DNA from: a virus
Length of the DNA stretch: 24,453 bases
Virus record (IMG/VR): IMGVR_UViG_3300017957_000073
Span: 1-24,453 of that record
Strand: one strand, 5' to 3'
Every line of letters starts with the position of its first letter. Position 1 is the stretch's first letter. A program made the position numbers and the translations under genes. This document shows, piece after piece, positions 2,547-23,637 of this stretch. The notes under the pieces are model-generated. The model searched no databases, was not told where the DNA came from, and was given only the letters and a program-made list of their open reading frames with translations.

Positions 2547-2984
2547 ATGAGCAATATTGTTTGTAGCGGTGCATTAGTTTATGCACTTGACACTAAAAGA
2601 TTCTTATTTTTACACAGAGCAAATGGTAAACAAAAAGACCTCTGGGGGCTTGTTGGTGGCACAAACGAAGGTGCTGAGACTCCTTGGGAGGGCCTAAAAA
2701 GAGAAATATTTGAAGAAATAGGAACTATTAACATTGTTAAAACAATGCCTTTAGAAACTTTTGTATCTAAAGATACTAAGTTTTTATTTCATACATATCT
2801 TTGTATCGTAAAAGAAGAATTTTTACCAAAATTAAATATCGAACACAATGGTTATGCTTGGGTAGAATTTGGAAATTGGCCTCGACAATTACATCACGGA
2901 CTTCGCAACACGTTACAAAACAAAGCAAATTTAAAAAAATTAGAAACAGTATTTCAAGTAGTGGATCTTATAGAATATGAGTAG
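2547..2984 (+). CDS. Nudix hydrolase
   Basis: The protein has 145 residues, typical for a single Nudix domain. The Nudix box GX5EX7REUXEEXG is complete: Gly38, Glu44, Arg52-Glu53, Glu56-Glu57 and Gly59, with Thr60 in place of the usual final hydrophobic residue. Family members hydrolyse a nucleoside diphosphate linked to another group, using metal ions held by the box glutamates; the substrate cannot be read from the box. The upstream segment DTKRFLFLHRANGKQKDLW and the following GLVGG resemble GDP-mannose or NTP-type Nudix enzymes. The gene starts 13 nt after gp15 and its end overlaps the cupin-like gene by 8 nt. A cytoplasmic role in nucleotide metabolism during infection is the plausible inference. 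Confidence 0.9.
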   Translation: MSNIVCSGALVYALDTKRFLFLHRANGKQKDLWGLVGGTNEGAETPWEGLKREIFEEIGTINIVKTMPLETFVSKDTKFLFHTYLCIVKEEFLPKLNIEHNGYAWVEFGNWPRQLHHGLRNTLQNKANLKKLETVFQVVDLIEYE

Positions 2985-3351
2985 TGTTATAAAATTCGAA
3001 GGTGGATACGAAATTCATTGGATTTCGAAAGAAGAATATTCATCCAAAATTATTGTTTTTGAAAAAGCAGGTGTTAAGACCGATATGATTTTTCACACTA
3101 AAGGAACAAAGTCTTGGTTTATTAATGCTGGAAGTTTTAAAGTTCGTTGGATTGATACTAGCAACGGTGTACTGCAAGAAAAAGAATTAAATGAAGGAGA
3201 TGTTTGGGACATTTTAGCGTTAACTCCGCATAGTTTAGAAAGTGTTTATCCTAATTCTTCTATAACAGAAGTAAACAATAATATTTCAAAAGACGATAAA
3301 CACGTTATAATTTCAAGTCAAACATTTAAACAAGGAGAAGAAAATGTTTAG
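2977..3351 (+). CDS. Cupin-fold protein, resembling sugar-phosphate isomerase cupins
   Basis: The protein has 124 residues and a single beta-barrel pattern. The first cupin stretch is MIFHTKGTKSWFINAGSFKV (about residues 37-56) and the second is LNEGDVWDILALTPHSLESV (71-90). The spacing resembles the C-terminal cupin of type II mannose-6-phosphate isomerase/GDP-mannose pyrophosphorylase. Of the usual metal ligands, His40 and His85 are present, but the HxH pair of motif 1 reads HTK, so metal binding and catalysis are uncertain. It overlaps the Nudix gene by 8 nt and the next gene by 8 nt, which indicates coupled translation. The two neighbours could act on the same nucleotide-sugar, but this is only inferred from adjacency. 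Confidence 0.65.
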   Translation: MSSVIKFEGGYEIHWISKEEYSSKIIVFEKAGVKTDMIFHTKGTKSWFINAGSFKVRWIDTSNGVLQEKELNEGDVWDILALTPHSLESVYPNSSITEVNNNISKDDKHVIISSQTFKQGEENV

Positions 3352-9818: not shown

Positions 9819-11114
9819 TTAGCCATAACTTGTAAGAGATCCTATTACTGTCCAGTTGTTTAACAATCTTATTAAAGTAAAACTTACAACATCAACAGCA
9901 TTTACTGTACCTGTCGGCGGCGTGCCACCTTGCCAATTAATAGTAACTGTAGTTCCGTCGATGGCTGCTCCGGTAGGCAAATATGCAGTCGATCCTTGAC
10001 CTATTAATAATGCTATAGTAATTGTTTTATTGTTGGTTGTAGGAACGTTTGTAAAGTTTGCTGTAAAATCAGCCGCTGGACTTAAATGATAAAATACTGA
10101 AGTTGATGAAAAATCGTGATCAACTGTTCCTGTTGCTCCAGTTAAAGATGTAAGATTTTCAATTCCTGAACCAAACGTTGTTATTCCTGATAGTATACTA
10201 TCTGTTATTGTTATGCTAGAATAACTTGAAGGAATATTACTTAAACTTGTGTAATCACCATCAAATAATGCAGGACGATTATCTAGATCATTATAACTTC
10301 CTGAAGTTGCTACTGTCGAGAGGCCATTTTGAAAACCTGTAAAACTTGTTGTAGTAACATAATTTGAAAGACTTGATGCTAGTGCATAATTTGATAAATT
10401 AGCAGGACTAAAATTAAATGTGCTTGTAATACTGTCGTAACTCAAAGCGCCGCCGCCAGTTGCTGTCCCAATCGAAACACTAAGTGATGCTAAATCTGCT
10501 CCTCCCGCACCGCCGTAATCTGTGCCGGGGGTCCAATTTTGTCCGTCCCATTTTAATACTTGGCCGTTGCTAGGAGCAATGTCTGTAACATTTGCCAAAT
10601 CTTGTAAATTTGTAGGAATAGTGCCAATATCAGAATTTGTAACATATCCTGAATCATTTGTTAATTGACTTACTGCTGTTGGTATTGAGGGTTTATCGGT
10701 AAGATCATTATAACTGCCGCTAAATGATCCGCTTCCGCTTCCGCTTCCTACTGAAACAAATCTAGGTTGTACCCACTGGTTTGAGTCACCGTCATTAAAA
10801 TAAATGTATAAGTTTCCAGTAGATGAGTCCCACCATAATTCACCTTCTGTTGGAGAACTTGGTGCAGAATCTGCAACTCCAACTCCTGAACCAACACCCG
10901 AAGATTGAGCTTTTGCTAAAAAATCTGCATTACCTATGTTTGATAAATCATTTTTGGCTAACTCGTATCCGCCTTTTAACACACCGTCATATAAACGAAG
11001 TGTGTTAGTTTTATCTTCGAAAAAGACATCTCCTTTTGAGCCAATATTTCTTTCAAGAAAATCCGCTTCTCGTGGAATAATTCTAACGTTATTAAAAAGT
11101 GTAGATTTTGACAT
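9819..11114 (-). CDS. Fibre/virion structural protein with SYNDL repeats (431 residues)
   Basis: The N-terminal domain (about residues 1-60) reads VRIIPREADFLERNIGSKGD then DKTNTLRLYDGVLKGGYELA, a pattern I associate with structural proteins of T4-like marine phages. About residues 85-115 hold a short domain (TEGELWWDSSTGNLYIYFND) seen in fibre proteins. The middle has two SYNDL repeats: GSYNDLTDKPSIPTAVSQLT and GSYNDLDNRPALFDGDYTSL. The C-terminal third is a beta-rich tip ending LLNNWTVIGSLTSYG. No enzymatic motif is visible. The ribosome binding site is weak (GATAGG, about 13 nt before the ATG). It follows the oxygenase gene after 39 nt with a promoter-like box in the gap. Confidence 0.8.
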   Translation of the reverse strand: MSKSTLFNNVRIIPREADFLERNIGSKGDVFFEDKTNTLRLYDGVLKGGYELAKNDLSNIGNADFLAKAQSSGVGSGVGVADSAPSSPTEGELWWDSSTGNLYIYFNDGDSNQWVQPRFVSVGSGSGSGSFSGSYNDLTDKPSIPTAVSQLTNDSGYVTNSDIGTIPTNLQDLANVTDIAPSNGQVLKWDGQNWTPGTDYGGAGGADLASLSVSIGTATGGGALSYDSITSTFNFSPANLSNYALASSLSNYVTTTSFTGFQNGLSTVATSGSYNDLDNRPALFDGDYTSLSNIPSSYSSITITDSILSGITTFGSGIENLTSLTGATGTVDHDFSSTSVFYHLSPAADFTANFTNVPTTNNKTITIALLIGQGSTAYLPTGAAIDGTTVTINWQGGTPPTGTVNAVDVVSFTLIRLLNNWTVIGSLTSYG

Positions 11115-11153: not shown

Positions 11154-11798
11154 TTATGTATTTAGAAGAGAAACATTCCAACTAAGACTAATTCTAGTTC
11201 CACCTGTAAAATGACTTTGTACATAATGATCTAACCAGCTAGGAAAGATCCAACCGTGTCCTTCAACTGGTGCTTGTCTTTTTTCCTGTGATCCTAAAAG
11301 CCTAGAACCTCGTGCGCCTCCTCGAGGATCAATGAATACTAAGTTACCTTCATTTTCGGGTAAATTTTCAGGAATTTGTAAATAAAATACTCCACTAAGA
11401 TCGCTGTTAGGATGTGTATGCACAGACGAATAGTCTCCCTCTCGCATCACCATTGCCCAACATACTGTTCGACAGTTATTTTCATTTAAAGGATGATGAT
11501 TAGGGTTGCCACTTAAAATTTTTAAATATTGTGTGCAAGACTGATGTATAATAGCTTCTAAAGTTTTCGACCAATCCTCGCTGAGATATGTTAGTGTTGC
11601 AGGTGAGTGATAACCGTTGCGACCTTTTAAAGAAAAAGCTTCAGAATTAGTTTTATTTTGTTCTTCGTCTTTAAGAATGTATTCAATTACTTCTTTACGA
11701 AATTCTTCACTTTTTGGGACGTCAAAACTAAACAACGGCGTTGGAAACAAATCTACTACATTAGTAATTTCATTGTTGTCTACTACATTATCGGACAT
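11154..11798 (-). CDS. 2OG-Fe(II) oxygenase family protein
   Basis: The 214-residue protein shows the pattern of a small family of putative 2-oxoglutarate/Fe(II) dioxygenases (TIGR02466 type, by recall). The N-terminus has VVDLFPTPLFSFDVP. The metal-binding region is YSSVHTHPNSDLSGVFYLQI (about 123-142), with His127, His129 and Asp133 as candidate ligands. It is followed by GNLVFIDPRGG, then FPSWLDHYVQSHF with the distal His191, and TRISLSWNV with Arg202, the usual 2OG contact. Such enzymes hydroxylate proteins, nucleic acids or small molecules using O2 and 2OG; the substrate here is unknown. It sits among fibre genes and is preceded by AAAAGGAGAATAAATG, a strong ribosome binding site. Modification of fibre proteins is an inference from location alone. 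Confidence 0.85.
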   Translation of the reverse strand: MSDNVVDNNEITNVVDLFPTPLFSFDVPKSEEFRKEVIEYILKDEEQNKTNSEAFSLKGRNGYHSPATLTYLSEDWSKTLEAIIHQSCTQYLKILSGNPNHHPLNENNCRTVCWAMVMREGDYSSVHTHPNSDLSGVFYLQIPENLPENEGNLVFIDPRGGARGSRLLGSQEKRQAPVEGHGWIFPSWLDHYVQSHFTGGTRISLSWNVSLLNT

Positions 11799-11844: not shown

Positions 11845-12198
11845 TTATTCTGGTTTTGGATATTTTAGTTTTACTGCTCTAACAGCTTCAACAAGTTCTT
11901 CGCCTTCTGGTCCTATATCAACACCATTATCAAACATATAGGTTAATGCTTTAACCAGTCTAAATATTTGCCATTGATCTTTAGGATATTCAGGAATTCT
12001 TTTTTGCCAGCATTCCATTAACTCGTCTGAAGGTTGTGCCGCTACTTCTTCAGGATCAGGTTGTACTGACAAATAATCTAAAAATTCTTCTTCGGTCATC
12101 ATACGACCATCTGGATGATCAGGGTCGACCGCGACTGAAGTTTCTCTTGTTAAACCTCTTTCAGCGTAAAACGCAATTTTTTCTTCTAAGGTTGCCAT
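11845..12198 (-). CDS. Small acidic protein, function unknown
   Basis: The protein has 117 residues and is strongly acidic and soluble-looking: EEKIAFYAERGLTRETSVAV, MMTEEEFLDYLSVQPDPEEV, then a predicted helical C-terminal half with VKALTYMFDNGVDIGPEGEE. There is no signal peptide, transmembrane segment or known motif. It follows the third tip paralog by 8 nt, with AGGAGATAAA before its ATG, and precedes the oxygenase gene. Position suggests a role linked to fibre assembly, such as a chaperone, but there is no sequence motif for that. Confidence 0.75.
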   Translation of the reverse strand: MATLEEKIAFYAERGLTRETSVAVDPDHPDGRMMTEEEFLDYLSVQPDPEEVAAQPSDELMECWQKRIPEYPKDQWQIFRLVKALTYMFDNGVDIGPEGEELVEAVRAVKLKYPKPE

Positions 12199-12206
12199 TT
12201 TATCTC

Positions 12207-12989
12207 CTATGCTTCTCGTTCTTCAAATCCGTGCATACCATATACCATTATAGTAGTACTTACTCCAGAACGTCCTCTAACGTCTCGAGTTTGACTTCCG
12301 AATGTTATACCTCTTATATTATAATATCTTTGACCGTTTTCGCCGGTTACATATGTACTAGGAATAAAATCTCCGGTATGCACAGCACCAGAGTCGCCGT
12401 TTCCTGCTCTATAACTACTAGTCCCCAACATTTGCCAACAGTTCATTGTAGTATTCATTGGCATACCGCCGCCGATAAACATTGTACTCATAACATATGA
12501 TTCACCGTTTGCTTGGTTACCATAACTTGAGTTAGAACTATCACCGTCTCCTATAACACTCCAATAACTGCTTCTGTTAAAGTTTACATCACAGCCGTCG
12601 TAGCCATCATTTGCACTCCACCACTGCTGAGCGTATGCGTAGACATTTCCTGATTCGGGCGCACTATTGTTATCGTGAAGCCTACAATAGATTCTTCCGT
12701 AGTTACTTGTCGAATCCATTGTTAATAGATCAACTCTATAAAGATGATATCTATGTACATTAGGATCCCAAGTGACACTAACAGTACCCCATTGTGCTGT
12801 TGTTTTAAGCCTAGATATAAGAGTCATTTGTCCTAGACCAGCCCACATATCAGTATTATCATTATTATAATATGCTTCAACCTGTTTGCTGGTTGTATTA
12901 TATCTAATGCGGCCTTCTGCACCGGTAGGCCTTTGAGCTCTAGTACCTTGTGGAAGGTCTATGTGATATTGATTTAATTTAGTTGCCAT
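12207..12989 (-). CDS. Fibre-tip/adhesin paralog C (260 residues)
   Basis: This is the last of three tandem paralogs. The N-terminus, LNQYHIDLPQGTRAQRPTGA then EGRIRYNTT and a Tyr-Asn-rich stretch, is shared with the two genes upstream and looks like an attachment domain of a phage fibre subunit. The middle is Trp/Asn/Ser/Tyr-rich (QQWWSANDGYDGC, NFNRSSYWSVIGDG) and differs between the copies. A constant QANGE follows at about residues 159-163. The end (NIRGITFG, TTIMVYGMHGFEEREA) is again shared. The composition suits a carbohydrate-binding tip, but no fold was assigned. Its start overlaps the upstream stop as TAATG, with GAGGAG upstream. Confidence 0.82.
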   Translation of the reverse strand: MATKLNQYHIDLPQGTRAQRPTGAEGRIRYNTTSKQVEAYYNNDNTDMWAGLGQMTLISRLKTTAQWGTVSVTWDPNVHRYHLYRVDLLTMDSTSNYGRIYCRLHDNNSAPESGNVYAYAQQWWSANDGYDGCDVNFNRSSYWSVIGDGDSSNSSYGNQANGESYVMSTMFIGGGMPMNTTMNCWQMLGTSSYRAGNGDSGAVHTGDFIPSTYVTGENGQRYYNIRGITFGSQTRDVRGRSGVSTTIMVYGMHGFEEREA

Positions 12990-14070
12990 TATACATCTGT
13001 CTCCTCGCTACCACTTAATCCATATACTGTAACAATAGTACCTGTGCCACTGCCACCTCTAATGCTGCCGCCATTAACAGTAAAGAATCGAATACCGTCA
13101 ATTGGATAAGCAGTTTGACCGTTTGATGCTCCTCGAGAGTTACCACTGTTAAAGCTCATATTCCATTCGCAACCTATTGTTCCTGGACTAGATCTACCGC
13201 TAGAAAATCCGTGTCCTGTAAATCTGTTGCTGGTAATATTGTTCGGTAATCCGCTACCAATCCTCATCCATATTAGATTACCAGTTTCACCGTTTGCTTG
13301 ACTTCTATAACTACTGTTGTCCCATTGTGTAACGTTCCAGTATGATCCGTAGTTTCTATTATGGTTAGCGTAGTCCCATCCATCGTTGGTGCACCACCAA
13401 GTCATTGACATTCCGTACCTACTGTCGTTATACCAACTGCCATCATTTCTAATTCTGACGCCAAGACCATTGTTGTTGTTTGTAAAGTCTGCAGAAACCA
13501 TAAAAACATCATACATTAGGTAACGTTTACTCCAAGTAACTTCTAAACTGCTCCACGTTGAGCCTGTCTTGGTATGTGCTACTATATTGGCGCCGCCTGC
13601 GGCATACCAACCGTCGCCATTGGCTATATCGTAGTATGTTTCATATGCTTTGTTAGTAGAATCTGCATTATAGTGTAATCTTCCTGTAGCATTGCTAGGA
13701 CGATTTGCTTTTGTGCCGCCAGTTCCTAAATCTATGTGATATTGACCTAAAGTTGACATTATAAAGTTCTCTCCTCTGTGCCACCGATACCGTAGCACAT
13801 AATACAACTACTTAAACCACTTACACTTCTATTTGATCCACCACTCCATAGTAGTTGTACTCCGCGAATTCCCTGAAATGCTTGGCCGTTAGTTCCAGTA
13901 ACAGCATTTGAAGTTTCTTGATTCCATATGCCTACTTGTGTAAATCCATAATGTCCGTTTGGTGATTGATATGCTCCTCTAGCCCAATATGATGTTTGGT
14001 TGTGTGAGCCTGAACACGGAAGGGCGGCAGTTTCAAAACTAAACATATGCTGTTGTTCACCGTTTGCTTG
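12501..14070 (-). repeat. Constant 15-nt core (CAAGCAAACGGTGAA) in all three tip paralogs
   Basis: The same 15 bases occur at 14056-14070, 13286-13300 and 12501-12515 (seen as TTCACCGTTTGCTTG on the + strand). Each encodes QANGE in frame and lies 459-486 nt after its gene's start. Sequence just upstream of the core in each gene encodes a variable Asn/Tyr/Ser/Asp-rich loop. Confidence 0.85.
12989..13759 (-). CDS. Fibre-tip/adhesin paralog B (256 residues)
   Basis: The start chosen is the ATG at 13759 (MSTLGQYHIDLG), which matches the starts of the two paralogs. A longer reading from 13807 would add 16 residues that belong to the upstream gene's end and have no counterpart in the family. The ribosome binding site GAGGAG lies about 10 nt before this ATG, and the start shares an A with the upstream TAA (TAATG). 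Shared parts are the N-terminal GQYHIDLGTGGTKANRPSNA, the constant SQANGET, the late IDGIRFF segment and the final IVTVYGLSGSEETDV. The middle contains MTWWCTNDGWDYANHNRNYG and is poorly conserved with its neighbours. A host-binding tip protein is likely. Confidence 0.82.
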   Translation of the reverse strand: MSTLGQYHIDLGTGGTKANRPSNATGRLHYNADSTNKAYETYYDIANGDGWYAAGGANIVAHTKTGSTWSSLEVTWSKRYLMYDVFMVSADFTNNNNGLGVRIRNDGSWYNDSRYGMSMTWWCTNDGWDYANHNRNYGSYWNVTQWDNSSYRSQANGETGNLIWMRIGSGLPNNITSNRFTGHGFSSGRSSPGTIGCEWNMSFNSGNSRGASNGQTAYPIDGIRFFTVNGGSIRGGSGTGTIVTVYGLSGSEETDV

Positions 14071-14556
14071 GCTTCGATAGCCGTTGCCGTCGTTATAATT
14101 TGATAATGGAAAATAATCTAACGGATTGCTGTCAATACGTCTGTTTCCATCTGCTATATCTTGTCCGTCGTTAGAACAGCGCCAGTTTTGTGTATGACCG
14201 TATCTACTGCCACTGTCAACGTTACCATTATTAGCACGTAGTAATCTCATATATAGCATTGCAGTTCCAGTCGGATCTGCTAATACTCCGGTAACTTCGT
14301 ATCTAGAAAATCTAGAGTTGTTAATTCCCCAATCTAAAGTAAGACTACTCCAGCTACTACCTTGGGCATATCTGTATATTAATTCTCGACCGCCGACAGC
14401 ACTAAAAAAATTATCACTACCGTTTGCATTGTTAGTGTATTGATCTAATGATCTATTGGTTGTATTCCATCTAAGTTGCGCTTCTGCACCGGACGGCTTT
14501 TGTGCTTCTGTTCCGCTACCAAGATCGATGCTGTATTGCCCTAATGTTAATGCCAT
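13759..14556 (-). CDS. Fibre-tip/adhesin paralog A (265 residues)
   Basis: This is the first of three tandem paralogs. It starts at 14556 after AGGAGAGTAACCTAAA, 6 nt beyond the stop of the S74 fibre gene. The shared N-terminus is LGQYSIDLGSGTEAQKPSGA then EAQLRWNTT. The central, divergent part includes YGHTQNWRCSNDGQDIADGN and DYFPLSNYNDGNGYRSQANG, the latter ending in the constant QANGE core. The shared C-terminus is NGQAFQGIRGVQLLWSGGSN, then CIMCYGIGGTEERTL. Divergent middle plus conserved ends fits duplicated receptor-binding proteins on a common assembly scaffold. It has no signal peptide; export is by virion assembly. Confidence 0.82.
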   Translation of the reverse strand: MALTLGQYSIDLGSGTEAQKPSGAEAQLRWNTTNRSLDQYTNNANGSDNFFSAVGGRELIYRYAQGSSWSSLTLDWGINNSRFSRYEVTGVLADPTGTAMLYMRLLRANNGNVDSGSRYGHTQNWRCSNDGQDIADGNRRIDSNPLDYFPLSNYNDGNGYRSQANGEQQHMFSFETAALPCSGSHNQTSYWARGAYQSPNGHYGFTQVGIWNQETSNAVTGTNGQAFQGIRGVQLLWSGGSNRSVSGLSSCIMCYGIGGTEERTL

Positions 14557-14562
14557 TTTAGG

Positions 14563-15522
14563 TTACTCTCCTTTTAGACGATCAACTTCTTGCTTTAATT
14601 CTTTAATTGCTTCAACTAGTAAAGGAATAACCTTTTCATACTGAATTGTTAAATAATTTTCTCCAGATTTACTTGTTCCGTCTGATTCAATATCAAATGG
14701 AGCAGGCTTAACTACTTCTGGTAAAACTTCTTGTACTTGTTGTGCAATTAACCCTACTTGTGGACTATAATCATTATATCCAAAATCTTCTGCTAATTTA
14801 TTTTGTGTGTACATTACACCATTAAGTGCAACGACTTTGTCAAGTGCATTAGGAATATTTCCTGAAATTTCTTTTAAGCGTTGATCTGAATAGTAAGCAG
14901 TAATAGCATTAGTTGCTCTTATTTCGCCGCCTGTCCCTGACCAATCAGTACCGACACCTAATGAATCAACCCTAAAATTACCGCATACACTGTTTCCACT
15001 AACACCAATTCCACCTGCAACTCTTAAAACACCTGTTGTTTTACTCGATGACGCCGTTGTGTTTGTTAAGTACAATTGACCAGTACTTGCATTAAATCTA
15101 AAGTTAGTTGCACCGTATACAGTTCCTATTTGACTATCACTGTTGTTTGATGTAAACACAGGATAATAAGTAGTGTTTGATGTAACAATATCTAATGCAA
15201 TACCTGGATCACCAAAACTTAAATTTCCACTTCCATCAGTTTTAAGTACTTGGCCATCGTCGCCGTCACCATCAGGTAAAATCCAAGTAGTATTTGTAGT
15301 AACATTTGATGGAGCAGTAAACCCTAAATATTGAGTGTTATCGTCGTCGTAAAGTCTAATACTGTTTCCATTTCGAACTTCAGTTGTTTTTGTAACTTGA
15401 AGTACGCCTGTTGGGTCTAATATTAAATTTTCCGCTGCCTGGACAGTTTCAATAGTATTTGTTTGAACTGAGAGTGTACCAAATCCAGGTAGTGCCACAC
15501 CATTTGTTATTCTACGTCCCAT
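14563..15522 (-). CDS. Tail fibre with C-terminal S74 self-cleaving chaperone domain
   Basis: The 319-residue protein has an N-terminal beta-rich part. A module at about 46-105 (VRNGNSIRLYDDDN, YLGFTAP, GQVLKTDGSGNLSF) is also present in the fibre at 8640-9773, and TGVLRVAGGIGVSG (164-177) is the same strand-turn repeat. The C-terminus is an S74/endosialidase-type intramolecular chaperone: AYYSDQRLKEISGNIPNALD holds Ser212 and Lys217, the dyad expected for autocleavage, followed by SPQVGLIAQQVQEVLPEVVK and a coiled coil (KVIPLLVEAIKELKQEVDRL). Family knowledge predicts trimerisation followed by cleavage before Ser212, leaving a fibre of about 211 residues. It precedes the tip paralogs, so its foldon may help assemble the same structure. 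AAGGAA lies before its start. Confidence 0.9.
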   Translation of the reverse strand: MGRRITNGVALPGFGTLSVQTNTIETVQAAENLILDPTGVLQVTKTTEVRNGNSIRLYDDDNTQYLGFTAPSNVTTNTTWILPDGDGDDGQVLKTDGSGNLSFGDPGIALDIVTSNTTYYPVFTSNNSDSQIGTVYGATNFRFNASTGQLYLTNTTASSSKTTGVLRVAGGIGVSGNSVCGNFRVDSLGVGTDWSGTGGEIRATNAITAYYSDQRLKEISGNIPNALDKVVALNGVMYTQNKLAEDFGYNDYSPQVGLIAQQVQEVLPEVVKPAPFDIESDGTSKSGENYLTIQYEKVIPLLVEAIKELKQEVDRLKGE

Positions 15523-15531
15523 AATTTTTCC

Positions 15532-15852
15532 TTACGCTGTTTGGGTTTCTATGCCCATACATACTGCTGAAACAGATGAACCGCTAGAAGTAACAATAAC
15601 TCTTGTTCCTGTTTCAAGCACTAAACCTGTTCTTTCAAGTACACCATTTGCAACCAAATCTGCACCAAATTCGATATATTCATCTGTAGTTGCAGTGTCT
15701 GCACTAGCAAGTGCAATATTTATTGTAACTGCACTTCCTGATCTATTACAAACGTTAACTGCCACGACAGAGAACGTATCTGCAGGCACAGTATATACCA
15801 CTTCCGCGGCGCCACCGGTTAAATCTGCTGTTCCTAATCTTCCTGTTGCCAT
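15532..15852 (-). CDS. Small beta-rich virion protein (106 residues)
   Basis: The protein starts MATGRLGTADLTGGAAEVVY and consists of alternating hydrophobic and Thr/Ser residues with no long helix: VYTVPADTFSVVAVNVCNRS, then VTINIALASADTATTDEYIE. The pattern suggests a beta-sandwich of the kind found as a small accessory virion protein between fibre genes of T4-like marine phages (recall only). It lies 9 nt before the S74 fibre gene and 21 nt after the giant gene. The ATG at 15852 follows GGAGATTAAATAAA. A role as a fibre connector or capsid-surface protein is possible. Confidence 0.72.
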   Translation of the reverse strand: MATGRLGTADLTGGAAEVVYTVPADTFSVVAVNVCNRSGSAVTINIALASADTATTDEYIEFGADLVANGVLERTGLVLETGTRVIVTSSGSSVSAVCMGIETQTA

Positions 15853-15870: not shown

Positions 15871-15878
15871 TATTTATG
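15871..15878 (-). promoter_or_regulatory. Weak late-promoter-like box (CATAAATA)
   Basis: The - strand reads CATAAATA, 7 of 8 matches to TATAAATA. It overlaps the stop codon of the giant gene and lies 19 nt upstream of the ATG at 15852. The short distance would place the transcript start at or just before the GGAG ribosome binding site, so function is doubtful. Confidence 0.3.
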
Positions 15879-18800
15879 TTATAAAGTAATTCCAGGCTAG
15901 TGGCAAGCCGACAACTCCGCCTTGGAAGTTAACATTTGCCTTTATTTTAATTGTGCCACCTGTCGTAGTTTGTATTTCGTCATTAGCAATGTATATAAAG
16001 CCGGACGTTACACTATTTACGTTAAGTGATGCACCACCACCACCAATTTGTGAACTAATATATGCTTTAATAGCTCGTTGTGTTGGTACTACACTATCCG
16101 AGTCTGCTGTAAAGAACGGATCTGTTGAAAATTCGTTAATTGTAGCAGAGTTACCGCCTAGTGTAACTTCACCTAGTGTAAGTTCTTGTAGTCCTGCAAT
16201 ATTAAATGCATCAGCATTCAATGTTGCAATACCAGTTGACTGCTCAATTGTAAACAGCTCACCAACTCTGAAGTTACCGTCTTGGTCAGTACTTGTATAG
16301 AACACTCTACCTCCATTAAAGTCACTAGTCTCTTTAGATTGTAGTGGATCTTTTAATGGAAGCCCTGGATAATTAGTGCTTGCAAAGTTACCTGAGCCAA
16401 TGTCTAGGAAATCGTGTCCTGTTAATCTTACTTGTGAATAACGTATGCGTGTTGTTACCTCTACGCCGTGTTCAGGCGAATCAAATTGAGTCATTTCAGG
16501 ACTAATTTGGAAAAATGCATTGTATGATCCTTCGTAATCACCTCTAAATGTTAGCACATTAACAAGTTTAAATGTTCTATCTGGTAAATGACTAAACACT
16601 ACATTAGATCCCGCTACTGGTTTGTTTGTCATATTTCTAATAGCAATATAGTTGCCGTCTTGATAGAAATCTGCATAGCCGTTACCACTACTAATACTTG
16701 CACTAGCACTTGTATAGTTTGCACCTCTATTTTTCCAATCAGGCTGTGCTAATACGCCGTCGCCTAGTCTTATATCAGCAGGCGCTTCGTATGTATTGTT
16801 AGGATCAGTAATGCTCATAGTAGGTGCACTTGCATAACCTGAACCTGGATCTGTTATTCTAACAGCAAAAATCTTTTCTTCAGAAACAAATGCTCTAGCT
16901 TTTGCTCTTGCGCCTGTAGCAATCTTTACTGTTCCAGTGCCATTGTCGATGCCTACAAACATTGGTACATAGTTAGGATTACCAAATCCAAACACATCTG
17001 ATACTTGCCCTGAATTTGATTGATCAATCCAAGTTATACCAAACTCAGAAGTTTGTATGTTTTGTCCACCAGTTCTTGCTAAAAGGAATACACCTTGTCC
17101 GTAATGTATTTCTTGTGCTCCACTTGTTTCTGTTGTTACTGAAGTCCAAGTTTCTGCATTATCAACACTGTAAACAATACTTGCATTACCATTGTCATTA
17201 GCAAGAATAAATCTATTATTACCATATGCTATGCTATTCCAACCAGTATTTCCCGCAGCCAATGCTGTTGAAGTAGACCAGTTACTTCCGTTGTCAGTTG
17301 AATAAGCAATAGTGTTGCTATTCTCAGCAACAACTACCCAAGTTCCGCCTCCGTATGCGATATCGGTCCAGTTATTTGTATTTGGAAGTGTTATAGTTGT
17401 CCAACTAGTACCGTTTGCAGTTACACCTGCACTAGCTGAACCTGCTTGCACTGCCATCCATCTACCATTGCCATACGCAATAGCACGATAATCGCTGCCT
17501 GAAGGTAGATTTCCACCTGCTGACCAGTTAGCACCTGCATCATAACTATATGATGTTGACCCATTTGCCGCTAGTGCTACAGCAATATTTTGATTCGGAA
17601 GTGCAGTACCACTGCCTGTTCCTGGTCCAGTTGCAACAAATGTTGTTCCTAATGCGTTGCTTAAAGATCCAATCGCTGTATAGCTAGTATCAGACACAGT
17701 TAGAATTGAATAAGAACGTCCTGTTATAAAACTACCTGCAACTTCTTGAGCTGTTAGCTCTCCACTTGCTATTCCTCTTAAACTACTTGCAATGTTTGTT
17801 GGAGTATTTCCTGCCGCAGTCCAAGCAACACCGTCAATAGATTCAGATGCCGCTGATCCTGTAAATGCATAGAATGTTCCGCCTCGACCGTAACCATCGG
17901 CATCAAATGCTAAAATTGTACCATCTGAGTCTACACTAGTAATAGTAATTGTAATATCATCTGTATTATCAGCATAACCTACCGAACTACCAAGTATGGT
18001 TAGTTCGTCTAGTCTTTCATAGTCCTGGCCACCTGTGTATAATGTTACGGTATAATTGTGATCTTTAACTGTAATATCAAATGTTGCACCAGTTCCATTA
18101 CCGCCAGTTGCTGATTGATTAATAAAGGTTTTATGTAATCCTAAGAATTCAACACCTTGGTTACCAACTGCATCTGTGTCTGCTGTAACAGTAGCACTAG
18201 TGCTAGGCTCGCTAAAGTTAATTGCAGGTTCTAAAACATATGTAGTTGAAGCATCTGGTACTGTTATACTATATCCTGGAACAACGTGATCCCATCCGCT
18301 TTCTACTAAATCTACTGTACCTGTGCCTGTAGTAGTACCTGTAGCTGTAAATATTTCTCCAACAAACGGGGTTGATCCTGCGCCAACTGTACTAAAATCT
18401 GTGCTACCTAAACTTGTAATCACATACTTTGAACTGGTTACTAAGTTAGCAGGTGTAACTTGTTTCACACGACGGACTACTCCTGCAATTTTACTACCAG
18501 CATTATATGTTTCGACTAGCCCGAATTGTCCTGCTCCAGAACCGCCTGTTAGCAATACATTCATACCAATATATGCTGAACTTAATTCAGAATCGGTTGC
18601 CGCAATAGTTACACTAGATGATGTTCCGCCTTGCGCAGTGTTTGCATTTGATAGATAACCAAACCCACCAAAGTTTCCAGCCGCTTCTGGCGCATCTGTA
18701 CTATCATCTACATTGTCAAGCAATCTAACTTGGAAAACAGCATTGTCTCTAAAGTCTGTTTGTTCAACAGCGGCTCCTGTTCCTGAACCATTTAATTCCC

Positions 18801-21800
18801 AATTAACTTCACTATAGTGACTACCTGCATTATTATATGCAAATTGTAATATTTCTTGTGCGCCGTCGCCAGTTACTTCACCAACTGTAGCAACATATTG
18901 GAATTTATTATCAACAATACCTTTTCCTTCAGTTTCTGTAGAATCAAAACCTTCTGCTACCGAACCAAAGTCACCGTAAGAGTTGTTACCGTTTGTACCT
19001 CGAATTTTACCACCATTTTCAGCTAAGTAACCGATGTGTCCATAATACGTAAACACTGAAACAAGTTCTGCTCTACCATTATTTGTTACCCACGCACCAA
19101 TACCATCACTTATAACCTGTGTAAAGTCGTTGGAAACAATTGAATCATTACCACCGTCGTGCAGTGCTCCGTCAATCTTTTGGCCAACTGCCGCTGTACC
19201 AAATGTTGTAACGTTTTGAACATATGGTGAACGTTTAGTAATCCAAACACGATCGTCTCCAGGACCCCAGCCTGGATCAAGTGATACATAAGCACCTGCT
19301 GTAGGACGTCTTGTGCCGTACTCATTTGCAGGTCCTAAATCACCTGTTAGATCTGCTAGTGTTTGGTTCCTAATGCCAGTGGCATTACGTACATAATACA
19401 TATCTTCTTCTAAACTTCCTAGCACACTATTGTTGTAATATCTAGCCGCTAAATGAGTTTTGTAATTACCGGTGTATCTTATATCATACTTAATAGCAGT
19501 AATATATTCATTAACATCTCTTTCGCAAAGTGTACTATTGTATACTAAATTAACAGCAATACTTCCTGTATCATCAGTTAGTGTTATAGGTGTATCTGCG
19601 TATCGTGTAGTAGCAACAGTGAATGTTGTTGAACTAACAACATCTTGAACATAATAAGTTGTTCCGAGTGTCAATCCGCCAATGTCATTTGCAAGTTTGA
19701 TTGCTGTATTTCTTTGCAACCAACTAGTATCACTAATTGTTATTACATTACCTGTTGAGCTAGTTGCTGTTACAGTATCGCTATATGTATTAGCAATAAA
19801 GTTTGTAACATCTGCAACGATAAAATCTCTATTTCTTTCTAACTGTGCAGAAGCATAATGATCATTTCTTGAACTTGAAAGTTTATTTGTTCCTTCTGGA
19901 CGTCCTCCAAATACAATATCATCAAGTGTTGTCATTAGCGTTTCGATTCTAGCTTGAGCAGTTGCATCGCCACCAACATTTGCTTTTGCTTGAGTTTTAA
20001 CTTCAGCAAACGCATCTCTTGTGGTTTTCTTTTGCTTTAAATCGTAAACATCTTTTGCACTAGCACGTAAGTAAGAATGTGCGGCTCTTCTTGTTTGACC
20101 ATTTGCATTAAACATAAAGTCATACATAACAGCTTCTGTAATAAGTCTTACATCACGCAAGCATTTAACTTGCTTATACTTAACTAATGCATCACCTTTA
20201 GCAGTTGTTGAGCTAGGGAATACAACTTGCTTGTTGCCTCCATCGTCTGTATAACTTACTTGAATTTCTGTAATGTCTACAACATCTCCTGCTTCAAGGT
20301 TATGATTTGCCGAAGTTGTAACAGTAGCAATGCCTGTTGAATTATTCCAAACAAAGTTTGATACTGTTAATACTGTTCCATCGGACTTAGTAACTTTGCC
20401 GCCTTTAACATATGTACGTGCATATGTTTCTGTTCCTACATAAATTTCAAACGCTGTTGCGGTTATATTATCATCGCTTACTACAAAGTCAGTATGCCAG
20501 TTAGTAAGATTTAATTCATTAACAACAGCCTGAACTATTGTTTCTTGGGCGGCATCTAAAGTTTCAGCCGCTGTAATCAATGCAGTAGTTGTTGTTACTG
20601 CGTCAGTAACTGTAGGTGATTCAACTACATCACCAACAATAGTTAATCCTGTACCGTTAGTTAGTGTTAGTGTTGATCCTCCAAGTGTTTCTGCTACTGT
20701 AAATGTAGTGCTTGCTGGAACTGAGATAACCCAATATGTTCTATTTTTAACAAATCCATTTGCAGTGCTTCGTACTCTAAACGTATCACCGATGCTCAAC
20801 CCGTGTGCCGCACTAGTTGTACAAACATTACTTGCAATATCAGTAACAGTAACATTTGGAACGTCTGAAGTTCCGCCGTTAATAACATCTCTAATAATTT
20901 CAATTAATTCGCCAATTCTAGTCGATGATCCTGCGCTACCTGCTGTTCCTGCATACTGTGTAACTCTAGTTTGTAAGGGACCAATAACTACAGAAGTAGC
21001 AACACTTTGCATTGTTTGTTTTAAGTATGTGTAAGCGGCAAGTGTTGCGGCTTTTTCACTACTGTCTAGCATCGAATCGCCATCTCGCCCATCATAGTAT
21101 GCTAATGCCGCCACTATAGTTTGAGAGTTACCACCATAGGTAAGATCATAGCAAACTGCGTCAACAATATAGTTAACATCTTTTTTACACTGTGTTTTAC
21201 TATAACGTAATGTTGGATAATTGTCGGTTATGTATTCTATAACCTCTTCTTGTAAGAATTTCTTATTATATTGTAAATTCTTTCTTGCATCTCCATATCC
21301 ATTTAAGAACGAACTATTATATCCTGTTGGATCAGCATTATCGAGCAAGATATTAGTGTTTAAGGCAAAATCAATATTATGTCTTGCCATACGTAATAGC
21401 TGTTCTGTTTGTGCTGTTTCTAAAGATTCAGCAAATGGAAATTCTTGACTTTGTGTTTCTGTGTTACCAGATTGTGCTGTTATTGTTGTTCCTGTAACAA
21501 TATCATCAATAATGCTTTGGAAATGTCCAAGAGCGCCAACACTATATTTTGCATCTGCAATATCTGTAGAAGCTGTTGCTGGTCCTGCATTTACAGAACG
21601 TAATTCGTCACCTAAAATACAAGTTTCTCTAGGAACAATAATAGGAAGAACTTCTCTATATTTTCCTGTTTTAACATTAATAATTTTAGTAGGAACATAT
21701 TCTGCAGGAATATTGTCGTCAGTTCCTGCTGTAATAGCATCTGTAATAATTTTTACTAAGTCTGTTATTTCTGCAAGTGCACCTGTTTCAATATGTGTAA

Positions 21801-23637
21801 CTCCTAAATACTGTTCAACAACTGCTGTTGAGTTATCACCATTTAATGTCTGATAATTTGCAGCCGGTGCTTCTAGTGCTAGTACTGCTTCGATAACTGT
21901 TAATCCGTAATTAATACTTGCAACAGTTTCAGATTTTTGAGTCAAATAAGGTGAACCTAAAGTTTCGTTTACATATGCTAATGCTGACTTTCTTGATTTT
22001 TCATTACTTCCTTGACCGATGTCGTCTATTAACGCATCAATAATAATGCCCATATCTCTTTCACATTTCCAACTATCATATTCAAAAGAAGATGTAAAGG
22101 GTGAAAGATTATTAGCAACTTGATAGTCTGTCCATTCAACTATTTCTCTTTGAATAAACGCACGGTTAAGTTCTAATATTTTTTTCGCATTTGGATTTCT
22201 TACGCCGCGCTCAACTTGTTCACACGCATATCGAATTGTTTTAAATGGTTTATCAAGTGTTAGTCCGTTAATTGGTGCTGGTTCGTCTTTACCTTCAGGT
22301 GCAACATAAAACACGTGATCAACATTACCTAATGTTATCCATTCTGGATCTTCAATGCCTGCACGTAGCACTTGTCCTTCATAACCAATTGGCAATCTAG
22401 TAGGTCCTGATCCACCGTAGTAAATCATATCACCTCTAGTATTCATTACATCAGTTTCGCTACCAATGCTTAAAACATTCCAATATGTACCTGAAGTATC
22501 TTGATCTGGTCTAGAGTTAGCATCGCCGCCTAGTGATGATCCGTCATCACCTTCTGATACGTGGCCTAATATACAAATATATGCATTTGAGCCGTAACGT
22601 ACAACATCTCCTAATTTATATTCTTGATCGTCAACCCACTCGCCTTGCCACTGTAAACCACTATTTAATCTAGTCCAGTAAGTAACATTTGGCGGTTCTT
22701 GGCCGGTGTTATCTGCTGTTGCAAGATATGTATATCCTCTTAATCTTACAACTTCGCCGACTTTATACGCTGTTCCAATAGCCCAGTCGCTTTGGAAACT
22801 AAATCCTTGTGCTAGTAATCCCCATTCATCAGTTTCTGTAGATGGAATTGCATTAGAATGAATAGTTTTAGCAACATATTGATTACCGCCATATACAACA
22901 ATGTCACCTGGTTGATATGTTGTTACATTACTCCAAGAATCTTCAAACTCAAATCCTTCGACAAATTGATCCCAGTTTGCAATGTCGGTATTAAATGCGG
23001 TACCGTCTGACGTATGCGCAGTTTTACAAATCCATAAACTAGGTCCGTATTTTACAACATCATTAACTTTATAACGTGTTGAAATAGCCCAGTCTCCTTT
23101 AGGAGCAATTCCTTCATTAAACTCTTGCCAGTTAGCAATGTCTGCTTCTAGACCGTCTGTTGCACTTGCTTGAGAAGTGTGTCCGGCTGTAGCAATATAA
23201 ACTTTGCCGCCATATCTAACAAGATCATTTATTTTATATCTTGTGTTTGTTGTCCAGGCATTTTTCCAATCAATGCCTTCTGCAAAAGTAGACCAATTTG
23301 CTTGATCATTTTCAAGACCTAGAGCATTTGTTGCGGCAGATGTGTGAGCAGTTGTGGCAATATAAAGATTTCCGCCGTATTTTACAATATCGTTTAGAGC
23401 ATAAAATGTATTTGTTTGCCAAGCGTCTTTCCACGTTTGACCGTCAGTTAAAAGATTCCATCTTGTTGGAGAAAAATCTAAATCTGTATAAAAACTACTG
23501 CTATTTGATGTGTGTCCAATAACACAAATATATGTGCGGCCGCCATAACGTACCACATCATCTTGGTAGTATGTAGTGCTTCCTGCCCAGTCGCCCTGCC
23601 ATACAAATTTAACTCTACCTAGTCTAAATTCTGCCAT
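15874..23637 (-). CDS. Giant virion adhesin/structural protein (2587 residues)
   Basis: The start ATG at 23637 follows GGAGCAAAAA. Domains in order: seven W-x-x-x-x-x-Y-x-x-x-D-V-V-x-Y-G repeats, about 11-393; a beta-helix-type opening (VDHVFYVAPEGKDEP, TLDKPFKTIRYACEQ), about 435-475; Cys-Arg-Asp helical modules near 489, 787, 1152 and 1266-1405; a beta-helix strand block (INVKTGKYREVLPIIVPRET) near 660-690; and a second one about 1440-1590 (VWITKRSPYVQNVTTFGTAA, AELVSVFTYYGHIGYLAENG). A beta-propeller with Asp-box-like turns (SYDAGANW, STDNGSNW) spans about 1930-2226. The C-terminal domain (GGRVFYTSTDQDGNFRVGEL, IVPTQ-like SVVPTQRAIKAYI) is shared with the next gene upstream. No signal peptide is seen. 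Binding of host glycans is likely; the precise virion location is unknown. Confidence 0.85.
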   Translation of the reverse strand: MAEFRLGRVKFVWQGDWAGSTTYYQDDVVRYGGRTYICVIGHTSNSSSFYTDLDFSPTRWNLLTDGQTWKDAWQTNTFYALNDIVKYGGNLYIATTAHTSAATNALGLENDQANWSTFAEGIDWKNAWTTNTRYKINDLVRYGGKVYIATAGHTSQASATDGLEADIANWQEFNEGIAPKGDWAISTRYKVNDVVKYGPSLWICKTAHTSDGTAFNTDIANWDQFVEGFEFEDSWSNVTTYQPGDIVVYGGNQYVAKTIHSNAIPSTETDEWGLLAQGFSFQSDWAIGTAYKVGEVVRLRGYTYLATADNTGQEPPNVTYWTRLNSGLQWQGEWVDDQEYKLGDVVRYGSNAYICILGHVSEGDDGSSLGGDANSRPDQDTSGTYWNVLSIGSETDVMNTRGDMIYYGGSGPTRLPIGYEGQVLRAGIEDPEWITLGNVDHVFYVAPEGKDEPAPINGLTLDKPFKTIRYACEQVERGVRNPNAKKILELNRAFIQREIVEWTDYQVANNLSPFTSSFEYDSWKCERDMGIIIDALIDDIGQGSNEKSRKSALAYVNETLGSPYLTQKSETVASINYGLTVIEAVLALEAPAANYQTLNGDNSTAVVEQYLGVTHIETGALAEITDLVKIITDAITAGTDDNIPAEYVPTKIINVKTGKYREVLPIIVPRETCILGDELRSVNAGPATASTDIADAKYSVGALGHFQSIIDDIVTGTTITAQSGNTETQSQEFPFAESLETAQTEQLLRMARHNIDFALNTNILLDNADPTGYNSSFLNGYGDARKNLQYNKKFLQEEVIEYITDNYPTLRYSKTQCKKDVNYIVDAVCYDLTYGGNSQTIVAALAYYDGRDGDSMLDSSEKAATLAAYTYLKQTMQSVATSVVIGPLQTRVTQYAGTAGSAGSSTRIGELIEIIRDVINGGTSDVPNVTVTDIASNVCTTSAAHGLSIGDTFRVRSTANGFVKNRTYWVISVPASTTFTVAETLGGSTLTLTNGTGLTIVGDVVESPTVTDAVTTTTALITAAETLDAAQETIVQAVVNELNLTNWHTDFVVSDDNITATAFEIYVGTETYARTYVKGGKVTKSDGTVLTVSNFVWNNSTGIATVTTSANHNLEAGDVVDITEIQVSYTDDGGNKQVVFPSSTTAKGDALVKYKQVKCLRDVRLITEAVMYDFMFNANGQTRRAAHSYLRASAKDVYDLKQKKTTRDAFAEVKTQAKANVGGDATAQARIETLMTTLDDIVFGGRPEGTNKLSSSRNDHYASAQLERNRDFIVADVTNFIANTYSDTVTATSSTGNVITISDTSWLQRNTAIKLANDIGGLTLGTTYYVQDVVSSTTFTVATTRYADTPITLTDDTGSIAVNLVYNSTLCERDVNEYITAIKYDIRYTGNYKTHLAARYYNNSVLGSLEEDMYYVRNATGIRNQTLADLTGDLGPANEYGTRRPTAGAYVSLDPGWGPGDDRVWITKRSPYVQNVTTFGTAAVGQKIDGALHDGGNDSIVSNDFTQVISDGIGAWVTNNGRAELVSVFTYYGHIGYLAENGGKIRGTNGNNSYGDFGSVAEGFDSTETEGKGIVDNKFQYVATVGEVTGDGAQEILQFAYNNAGSHYSEVNWELNGSGTGAAVEQTDFRDNAVFQVRLLDNVDDSTDAPEAAGNFGGFGYLSNANTAQGGTSSSVTIAATDSELSSAYIGMNVLLTGGSGAGQFGLVETYNAGSKIAGVVRRVKQVTPANLVTSSKYVITSLGSTDFSTVGAGSTPFVGEIFTATGTTTGTGTVDLVESGWDHVVPGYSITVPDASTTYVLEPAINFSEPSTSATVTADTDAVGNQGVEFLGLHKTFINQSATGGNGTGATFDITVKDHNYTVTLYTGGQDYERLDELTILGSSVGYADNTDDITITITSVDSDGTILAFDADGYGRGGTFYAFTGSAASESIDGVAWTAAGNTPTNIASSLRGIASGELTAQEVAGSFITGRSYSILTVSDTSYTAIGSLSNALGTTFVATGPGTGSGTALPNQNIAVALAANGSTSYSYDAGANWSAGGNLPSGSDYRAIAYGNGRWMAVQAGSASAGVTANGTSWTTITLPNTNNWTDIAYGGGTWVVVAENSNTIAYSTDNGSNWSTSTALAAGNTGWNSIAYGNNRFILANDNGNASIVYSVDNAETWTSVTTETSGAQEIHYGQGVFLLARTGGQNIQTSEFGITWIDQSNSGQVSDVFGFGNPNYVPMFVGIDNGTGTVKIATGARAKARAFVSEEKIFAVRITDPGSGYASAPTMSITDPNNTYEAPADIRLGDGVLAQPDWKNRGANYTSASASISSGNGYADFYQDGNYIAIRNMTNKPVAGSNVVFSHLPDRTFKLVNVLTFRGDYEGSYNAFFQISPEMTQFDSPEHGVEVTTRIRYSQVRLTGHDFLDIGSGNFASTNYPGLPLKDPLQSKETSDFNGGRVFYTSTDQDGNFRVGELFTIEQSTGIATLNADAFNIAGLQELTLGEVTLGGNSATINEFSTDPFFTADSDSVVPTQRAIKAYISSQIGGGGASLNVNSVTSGFIYIANDEIQTTTGGTIKIKANVNFQGGVVGLPLAWNYFIT
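16950..17850 (-). other. Beta-propeller region with Asp-box-like repeats in the giant gene
   Basis: Residues about 1930-2226 repeat a blade with an Asp-box-like turn, S-x-D-x-G-x-x-W, at SIDGVAW, SYDAGANW, STDNGSNW and SVDNAETW, plus VTANGTSW and TSEFGITW. Each follows I-A-Y-G-N-G-R-W/F-type strands (YRAIAYGNGRWMAV, WTDIAYGGGTWVVV, WNSIAYGNNRFILA). Boundaries are approximate. Between the first and second blades lies an inserted segment of about 60 residues (SYSILTVSDTSYTAIGSLSN, FVATGPGTGSGTA). Confidence 0.7.
22459..23607 (-). repeat. Seven tandem carbohydrate-binding-like repeats (CBM5/12 type)
   Basis: The region codes residues 11-393 of the giant protein. Repeat lengths are about 57, 55, 55, 52, 50, 49 and 65 residues. 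The consensus is W-x(5)-Y-x(3)-D-x-V-x-Y-G-x(2)-Y-x(5)-H-T-S, ending near W-x(3)-x-x-G. Repeats 2 and 3 are the most alike (TWKDAWQTNTFYALNDIVKY against DWKNAWTTNTRYKINDLVRY). Such modules in chitinases bind polysaccharide, which is a family-level analogy here; no catalytic domain is attached. Confidence 0.75.

Follow-up and report, generated by a model that had tools for sequence, protein, structure and literature searches.

The DNA analysed here, called the window, is an entire IMG/VR record of 24,453 bases, which is a fragment of a marine phage genome. Its minus strand carries a run of tail genes. The first encodes a 2587-aa tail fibre protein (15874-23637), which matches the phrog_9851 tail fiber protein (E 2.5e-190). 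It is followed by genes for a 106-aa protein (15532-15852) and a short fibre protein with a C-terminal S74 chaperone domain (14563-15522; PF13884, E 1e-12). Then come three paralogous genes, here called G1, G2, and G3, a gene for a 117-aa protein, and a 2OG-Fe(II) oxygenase gene (11154-11798; PF13759, E 2e-17; phrog_81), which is a conserved neighbour in cyanomyoviruses. Past the oxygenase gene, more fibre-like proteins are encoded. The S74 protein was also considered as T4-GC514, but the two proteins, despite their similar length, do not align, and this assignment was rejected.

The best matches of the tail-sheath-stabiliser gene are from the jumbo phages Atu_ph07, CBB, PBECO4, and 121Q, and those of a 1673-aa structural protein are from S-CAM1, S-CAM3, and the marine virus AG-345-P14. 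The sheath-stabiliser-like gene is broken into two frames, 886-1281 and 1256-2533 (phrog_11196 positions 4-130 and 132-347). Since four near-identical contigs (L036-L039) differ from the window by a two-base gap at ~1259, the split frame probably reflects either faulty assembly or a mutation private to the record. A cysteine-dioxygenase-like gene (2977-3351) adjoins a Nudix hydrolase gene (2547-2984), and cysteine dioxygenase is also annotated near the equivalent locus in P-SSM2, S-CAM1, and S-CAM3.

The three tandem tip-type paralogs that a sequence-only reading had placed at 12207-14556 lie at exactly these positions, on the minus strand. G1 (13759-14556) encodes 265 amino acids, G2 (12989-13759) 256, and G3 (12207-12989) 260, and they match phrog_2415 with E values of 9e-27, 9e-23, and 6e-23, respectively. 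As had been claimed, both junctions are TAATG; the ATG of G2 overlaps the stop of G1 by one base, and that of G3 overlaps the stop of G2 in the same way. The pairwise identity among the three proteins is 33-37%, so their likeness is not due to chance and the duplication is not recent. The proposed pattern of shared ends and a divergent middle is roughly correct, as the mean identity drops from 53% over the 45 alignment columns at the start to 32% in the middle and is 40% over the final 45. However, conserved islands (NDGxD and SQANGE) persist in the middle.

A GAGGAG site had been described at each start. It is present for G2 (13771-13776, minus strand) and G3 (13001-13006, minus strand), but G1 has AAAAGGAGA. 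The AGGAG of the G1 site (14568-14572, minus strand) lies inside the final codons of the preceding S74 gene. The predicted anti-SD pairing energies of G1, G2, and G3 are -9.1, -9.1, and -8.9 kcal/mol, with identical spacing. Given these near-equal predicted ribosome-binding sites, similar amounts of the three proteins, also proposed earlier, are plausible as a prediction. Both GAGGAG sites double as Glu-Glu codons near the ends of G1 and G2. GAG makes up 12% of the Glu codons in the window genes. Among the 19 Glu-Glu dipeptides encoded there, 16 are written GAAGAA, one GAAGAG, and two GAGGAG, and both GAGGAG cases coincide precisely with the ribosome-binding sites of G2 and G3. The Glu-Glu near the C-terminus is conserved, and its equivalent in G3 is GAAGAA; the gene after G3 has its own ribosome-binding site around the stop. 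From this codon usage, we infer that the choice of GAGGAG in G1 and G2 serves the translation of the next gene.

The matches of G1-G3 to the phrog_2415 profile extend over nearly their full length. This family is T4-GC515, annotated as 'unknown function'. In cyanomyoviruses, T4-GC515 is a single-copy gene, in several cases located after a tail fibre, and its downstream neighbours are GC516 and then a 2OG-Fe(II) oxygenase (GC101 where labelled). The proteins of Syn1, S-RIM8, P-HM1, MED4-213, and S-SSM4 are homologous to G1-G3 over the full head, and the downstream pair of phrog_2504/GC516 and the oxygenase is common to these genomes and the window. However, each of these genomes has one copy, annotated as a hypothetical protein, whereas the window has three, and the N-termini of G1-G3 are ~60 aa shorter. 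Another 23 IMG/VR loci with phrog_2415 also contain one copy, with the longer N-terminus wherever that end is present. Among the IMG/VR phrog_2415 loci, the array is shared only with the sister contig L008, which starts inside G2.

The AF2 model of G1, built with 23 sequences, is all-beta (pLDDT 75, pTM 0.75). The structural reading uses this model; a single-sequence AF2 model of G3 (pLDDT 32) was left out. The top match of the G1 model is the Syn1 homolog (E 1.9e-21), followed by many phage proteins including tail-fibre proteins, and the model resembles parts of proteins of the tail-fibre type. A fold search of the model against solved structures gave no match with E < 0.001, and a sequence search gave no convincing relative. 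In a Pfam scan, the phage tail collar domain (PF07484) had no match in G1-G3, and Gly_rich_2 (PF21722) had none in the window proteins. The accessible portions of three virion proteomics papers on related cyanophages (PMC3037559, PMC10665884, PMC9146016) do not name proteins of the G1-G3 type.

Relatives were brought in by a scan with the window backbone gene at 74-886. One of them, L128, carries three tandem adhesin-like genes in the slot bounded by the S74 gene and the genes downstream; they have a common N-terminal module and other heads. The equivalent slot was located in relatives by anchoring on the conserved upstream gene for the 106-aa protein. This yielded 171 loci, and 66 were kept after dropping cut loci and near-duplicates. 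Mutually paralogous genes in the slot number three in 50 of these dereplicated loci, two in nine, and one, with no paralog pair, in seven, and none of the 66 has four or more. The two-copy class is at most nine, since one of its members (L169) is a pair of S74-position genes and not an array. Because two-gene and one-gene loci exist, three genes are not obligatory. These counts span 16 sequence groups with different heads; when groups are defined by array similarity, 15 have three genes, three have two, and one is mixed. As an illustration only, under a geometric distribution of mean 2.65 the chance of having no group above three in 24 is about 0.001, the groups not being strictly independent. 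Paralogy was assigned by BLAST without low-complexity filtering on Gly-rich proteins, with within-locus identities of about 30-75%, so little should be read into distant ties between families. In the window, the 106-aa gene and a short companion are followed by exactly three tandem paralogs, and the three-paralog loci include those of the cultured cyanophages S-CAM1 and S-CAM3.

The head families found in the slot are the jelly-roll-like phrog_2415, several Gly/Cys-rich types, and heads that by eye are LamG- or propeller-like. The three genes of one locus nearly always have the same kind of head. In L128 and L189, the heads differ within the locus, and the N-terminal module is the main shared part. 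Such N-terminal sharing is not general: the N-termini are more alike than the middles in 13 of the 50 triplets, and the C-termini in 45. TAATG was rejected as a general feature of triplets, since overlaps occur at just 10 of the 96 junctions examined; the remaining junctions are mostly tight, with a median gap of 9 nt. Downstream of the cassette in relatives (for example L128 and L140-L148), there are often carbamoyltransferase-like, flavin-monooxygenase-like, and 2OG-oxygenase-like genes; these identities come solely from inspection by eye or from the annotation of S-CAM phages and P-SSM2.

In L203, L142, and L204, the array is followed by a gene that matches Phage_tail_APC (PF16778) above the Pfam threshold; in L205, the gene with such a match precedes the three tip genes. 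In S-CAM1, the gene after the array is phrog_9740, unknown. Another order is seen in L204, L207, L215, and L226-L228, namely tip 1, accessory gene, tip 2, tip 3, and second accessory gene, so some loci have two chaperone-like genes per three tips. In the window, the gene after the array is the 117-aa gene (11845-12198, minus strand), assigned to phrog_2504/T4-GC516 by profile match and synteny. Since it has no Pfam match, a chaperone role is suggested by its position only, and we regard it as a candidate tail-assembly chaperone. G1-G3 lie between the 2587-aa tail fibre with its companions and the position of the tail-assembly chaperone in relatives. Together with the all-beta model of G1, this location gives indirect support to the earlier assignment of G1-G3 to the fibre-tip or adhesin type.

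The order of genes within the arrays was compared among relatives whose heads differ from those of the window, the loci not being independent samples. At an array identity of at least 50%, the best matching of the three genes preserves their order in 50 of 50 locus pairs (chance 1 in 6 each). Order is preserved in 11 of 15 pairs at 45-50% identity, the other four being cyclic shifts, and below about 40% the matching is at or near chance. In the S-CAM1/S-CAM3 group, order is preserved in 45 of 45 pairs, with paralogs within a locus only 33% identical. In a quick tree, the slot labels need 22 changes, versus 40.6 when shuffled (short search). The triplets of the window, L203, and L142 each form their own clade in this tree, and those of the L153 group cluster with one another, suggesting either concerted evolution or independent triplications. 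Some related triplets (L194, L198, L222, L266, L302; L162 and L301) match best as cyclic shifts, the pattern expected from unequal recombination in a tandem array. Swaps of gene order are also seen at 40-45% identity.

The sole close relative of the window array is L008, which is 99.7% identical over 9.4 kb, with 25 differences in 9426 bases. Nineteen of the 25 sit in two short tracts, 12653-12782 in G3 and 10869-10911 in a fibre-like gene. Eight differences fall in codons 69-112 of G3, and six of them change the protein; 11 lie within 43 bases of the 9819-11114 gene and are mostly silent. The simplest reading is that recombination tracts account for both clusters.

The fibre tips of tailed phages are generally regarded as homotrimeric, or as a single adhesin carried on a homotrimer. 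We propose that G1-G3 are instead the three subunits of one trimeric receptor-binding fibre tip, an A-B-C heterotrimer, and we consider this proposal evenly poised between right and wrong. The sequence-only reading had offered a hetero-oligomeric tip and three receptor specificities side by side. The ceiling of three genes, the slot order, and the chaperone downstream in relatives favour the hetero-oligomer without proving it. The ancestral tip would have been a homotrimer from one gene, with a chaperone of its own. In the phage of the window and in many relatives, the tip gene would have been triplicated, and each copy would have become specialised for one seat of the trimer. Similar amounts of the three subunits would result from their layout as an operon, from equal ribosome-binding sites, and from coupled translation, and the gene downstream may aid folding or assembly of the subunits. 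Since the seats of a trimer are three, one gene would give a homotrimer, two genes A2B, and three genes A-B-C, and a fourth would have no seat. This scheme fits a copy number that stops at three, slots that stay stable, and heads that are uniform inside each locus. For G1-G3 themselves, we infer the trimer, its heterotrimeric make-up, the location at the tip, and receptor binding.

The main rival is that each gene encodes a homotrimeric tip of its own, set on a different fibre or fibre position and with its own receptor, for which phages with several tail spikes are the model. We consider it unlikely, though a serious contender. The middles of G1-G3 are their most diverged parts, and the six amino-acid changes in codons 69-112 of G3 would suit a receptor-facing part. 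The mixed heads of L128 and L189, which join LamG-, propeller-, and Gly-rich-type heads to a shared N-terminal module, fit separate tips equally well and count against the heterotrimer. However, separate tips give no reason for the copy number to stop at three or for the near-constant head type within a locus. Independent swaps of single slots would also be expected, yet the slot order is kept. Distinctly less probable is a stack or mixed assembly, in which the three proteins form successive layers of one fibre end or random trimers without fixed A-B-C seats. The common N-terminal module, similar length, and equal expression signals agree with such an assembly, but random mixing provides no reason for slot-specific orthologs that are kept to about 45-50% identity.

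Ordinary duplication with little functional consequence, with one copy doing the work, is improbable to the point of needing little weight. It accords with the cyanomyoviruses, which manage with single-copy homologs. However, G1-G3 are all open and highly diverged, yet alignable over their full length, and Glu codons have apparently been picked to build ribosome-binding sites. In addition, triplets recur across different head families. The suggestion that G1-G3 are targets of a diversity-generating retroelement, raised by heads rich in Asn, Ser, Tyr, and Gly and by the clustered variation in G3, is very improbable and was dropped, since the ORF and family scan of this 24-kb fragment revealed no reverse transcriptase, no template repeat was seen in it, some of the eight G3 differences have no A on either side and so are not A-directed, and the second cluster, which lies in the 9819-11114 gene, consists mainly of synonymous changes of the kind that recombination leaves.

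Several known systems bear on the proposed heterotrimer. In the virophage DSLV2, three consecutive related tail genes form position-specific clades, and their products make a 1:1:1 heterotrimer, reported by co-purification (PMC12724248). By analogy, this tip serves as the precedent, although DSLV2 is not a tailed phage and its proteins have the gp37-type tail-collar domain (PF07484). Short phage tips of a comparable kind form homotrimers with chaperone help, as in Pam3, where gp24, a short fibre protein combining TNF-like and Gly-rich domains, is followed by its assembly chaperone gp25; this adhesin is encoded by one gene, unlike in the window, and is a homotrimer bound 3:3 by gp25 (PMC9608196). 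S16 gp38 and other Gly_rich_2 tips are Gly-rich and receptor-binding. One member of the S-CAM3 triplet matches PF21722, but S16 has a single gp38 gene, and the window heads have no Gly_rich_2 match. The triplets of S-CAM1 and S-CAM3 (phrog_4205, hypothetical) are arranged as in the window, in the slot after the 106-aa gene and followed by an accessory gene, and their gene order is conserved between the two phages. Their heads, in contrast, are Gly/Cys-rich, with no detectable similarity to the window heads in the searches made.

The tandem triplet of the window is real and, judging from the gene arrangement, appears to belong to a three-gene tip cassette that recurs among relatives. Such a cassette seems to have no description for tailed phages in the literature searched, which was thin on subscription papers. 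More tentatively, and at slightly less than even confidence, we suggest that a widespread lineage of large T4-type phages has obligate A-B-C heterotrimer tips with a shared chaperone, built repeatedly with different head folds. The cassette would then be the tailed-phage parallel, with other folds, of the virophage heterotrimer (PMC12724248). The heterotrimer can be tested cheaply, because the cultured phages S-CAM1 and S-CAM3 carry the equivalent arrangement. If the proposal is true, each tip gets three different receptor-facing surfaces on one trimeric socket. A recurrent three-gene tip would alter annotation, in which three 'hypothetical' genes would become one device, as well as the modelling of these proteins and comparison between phages.
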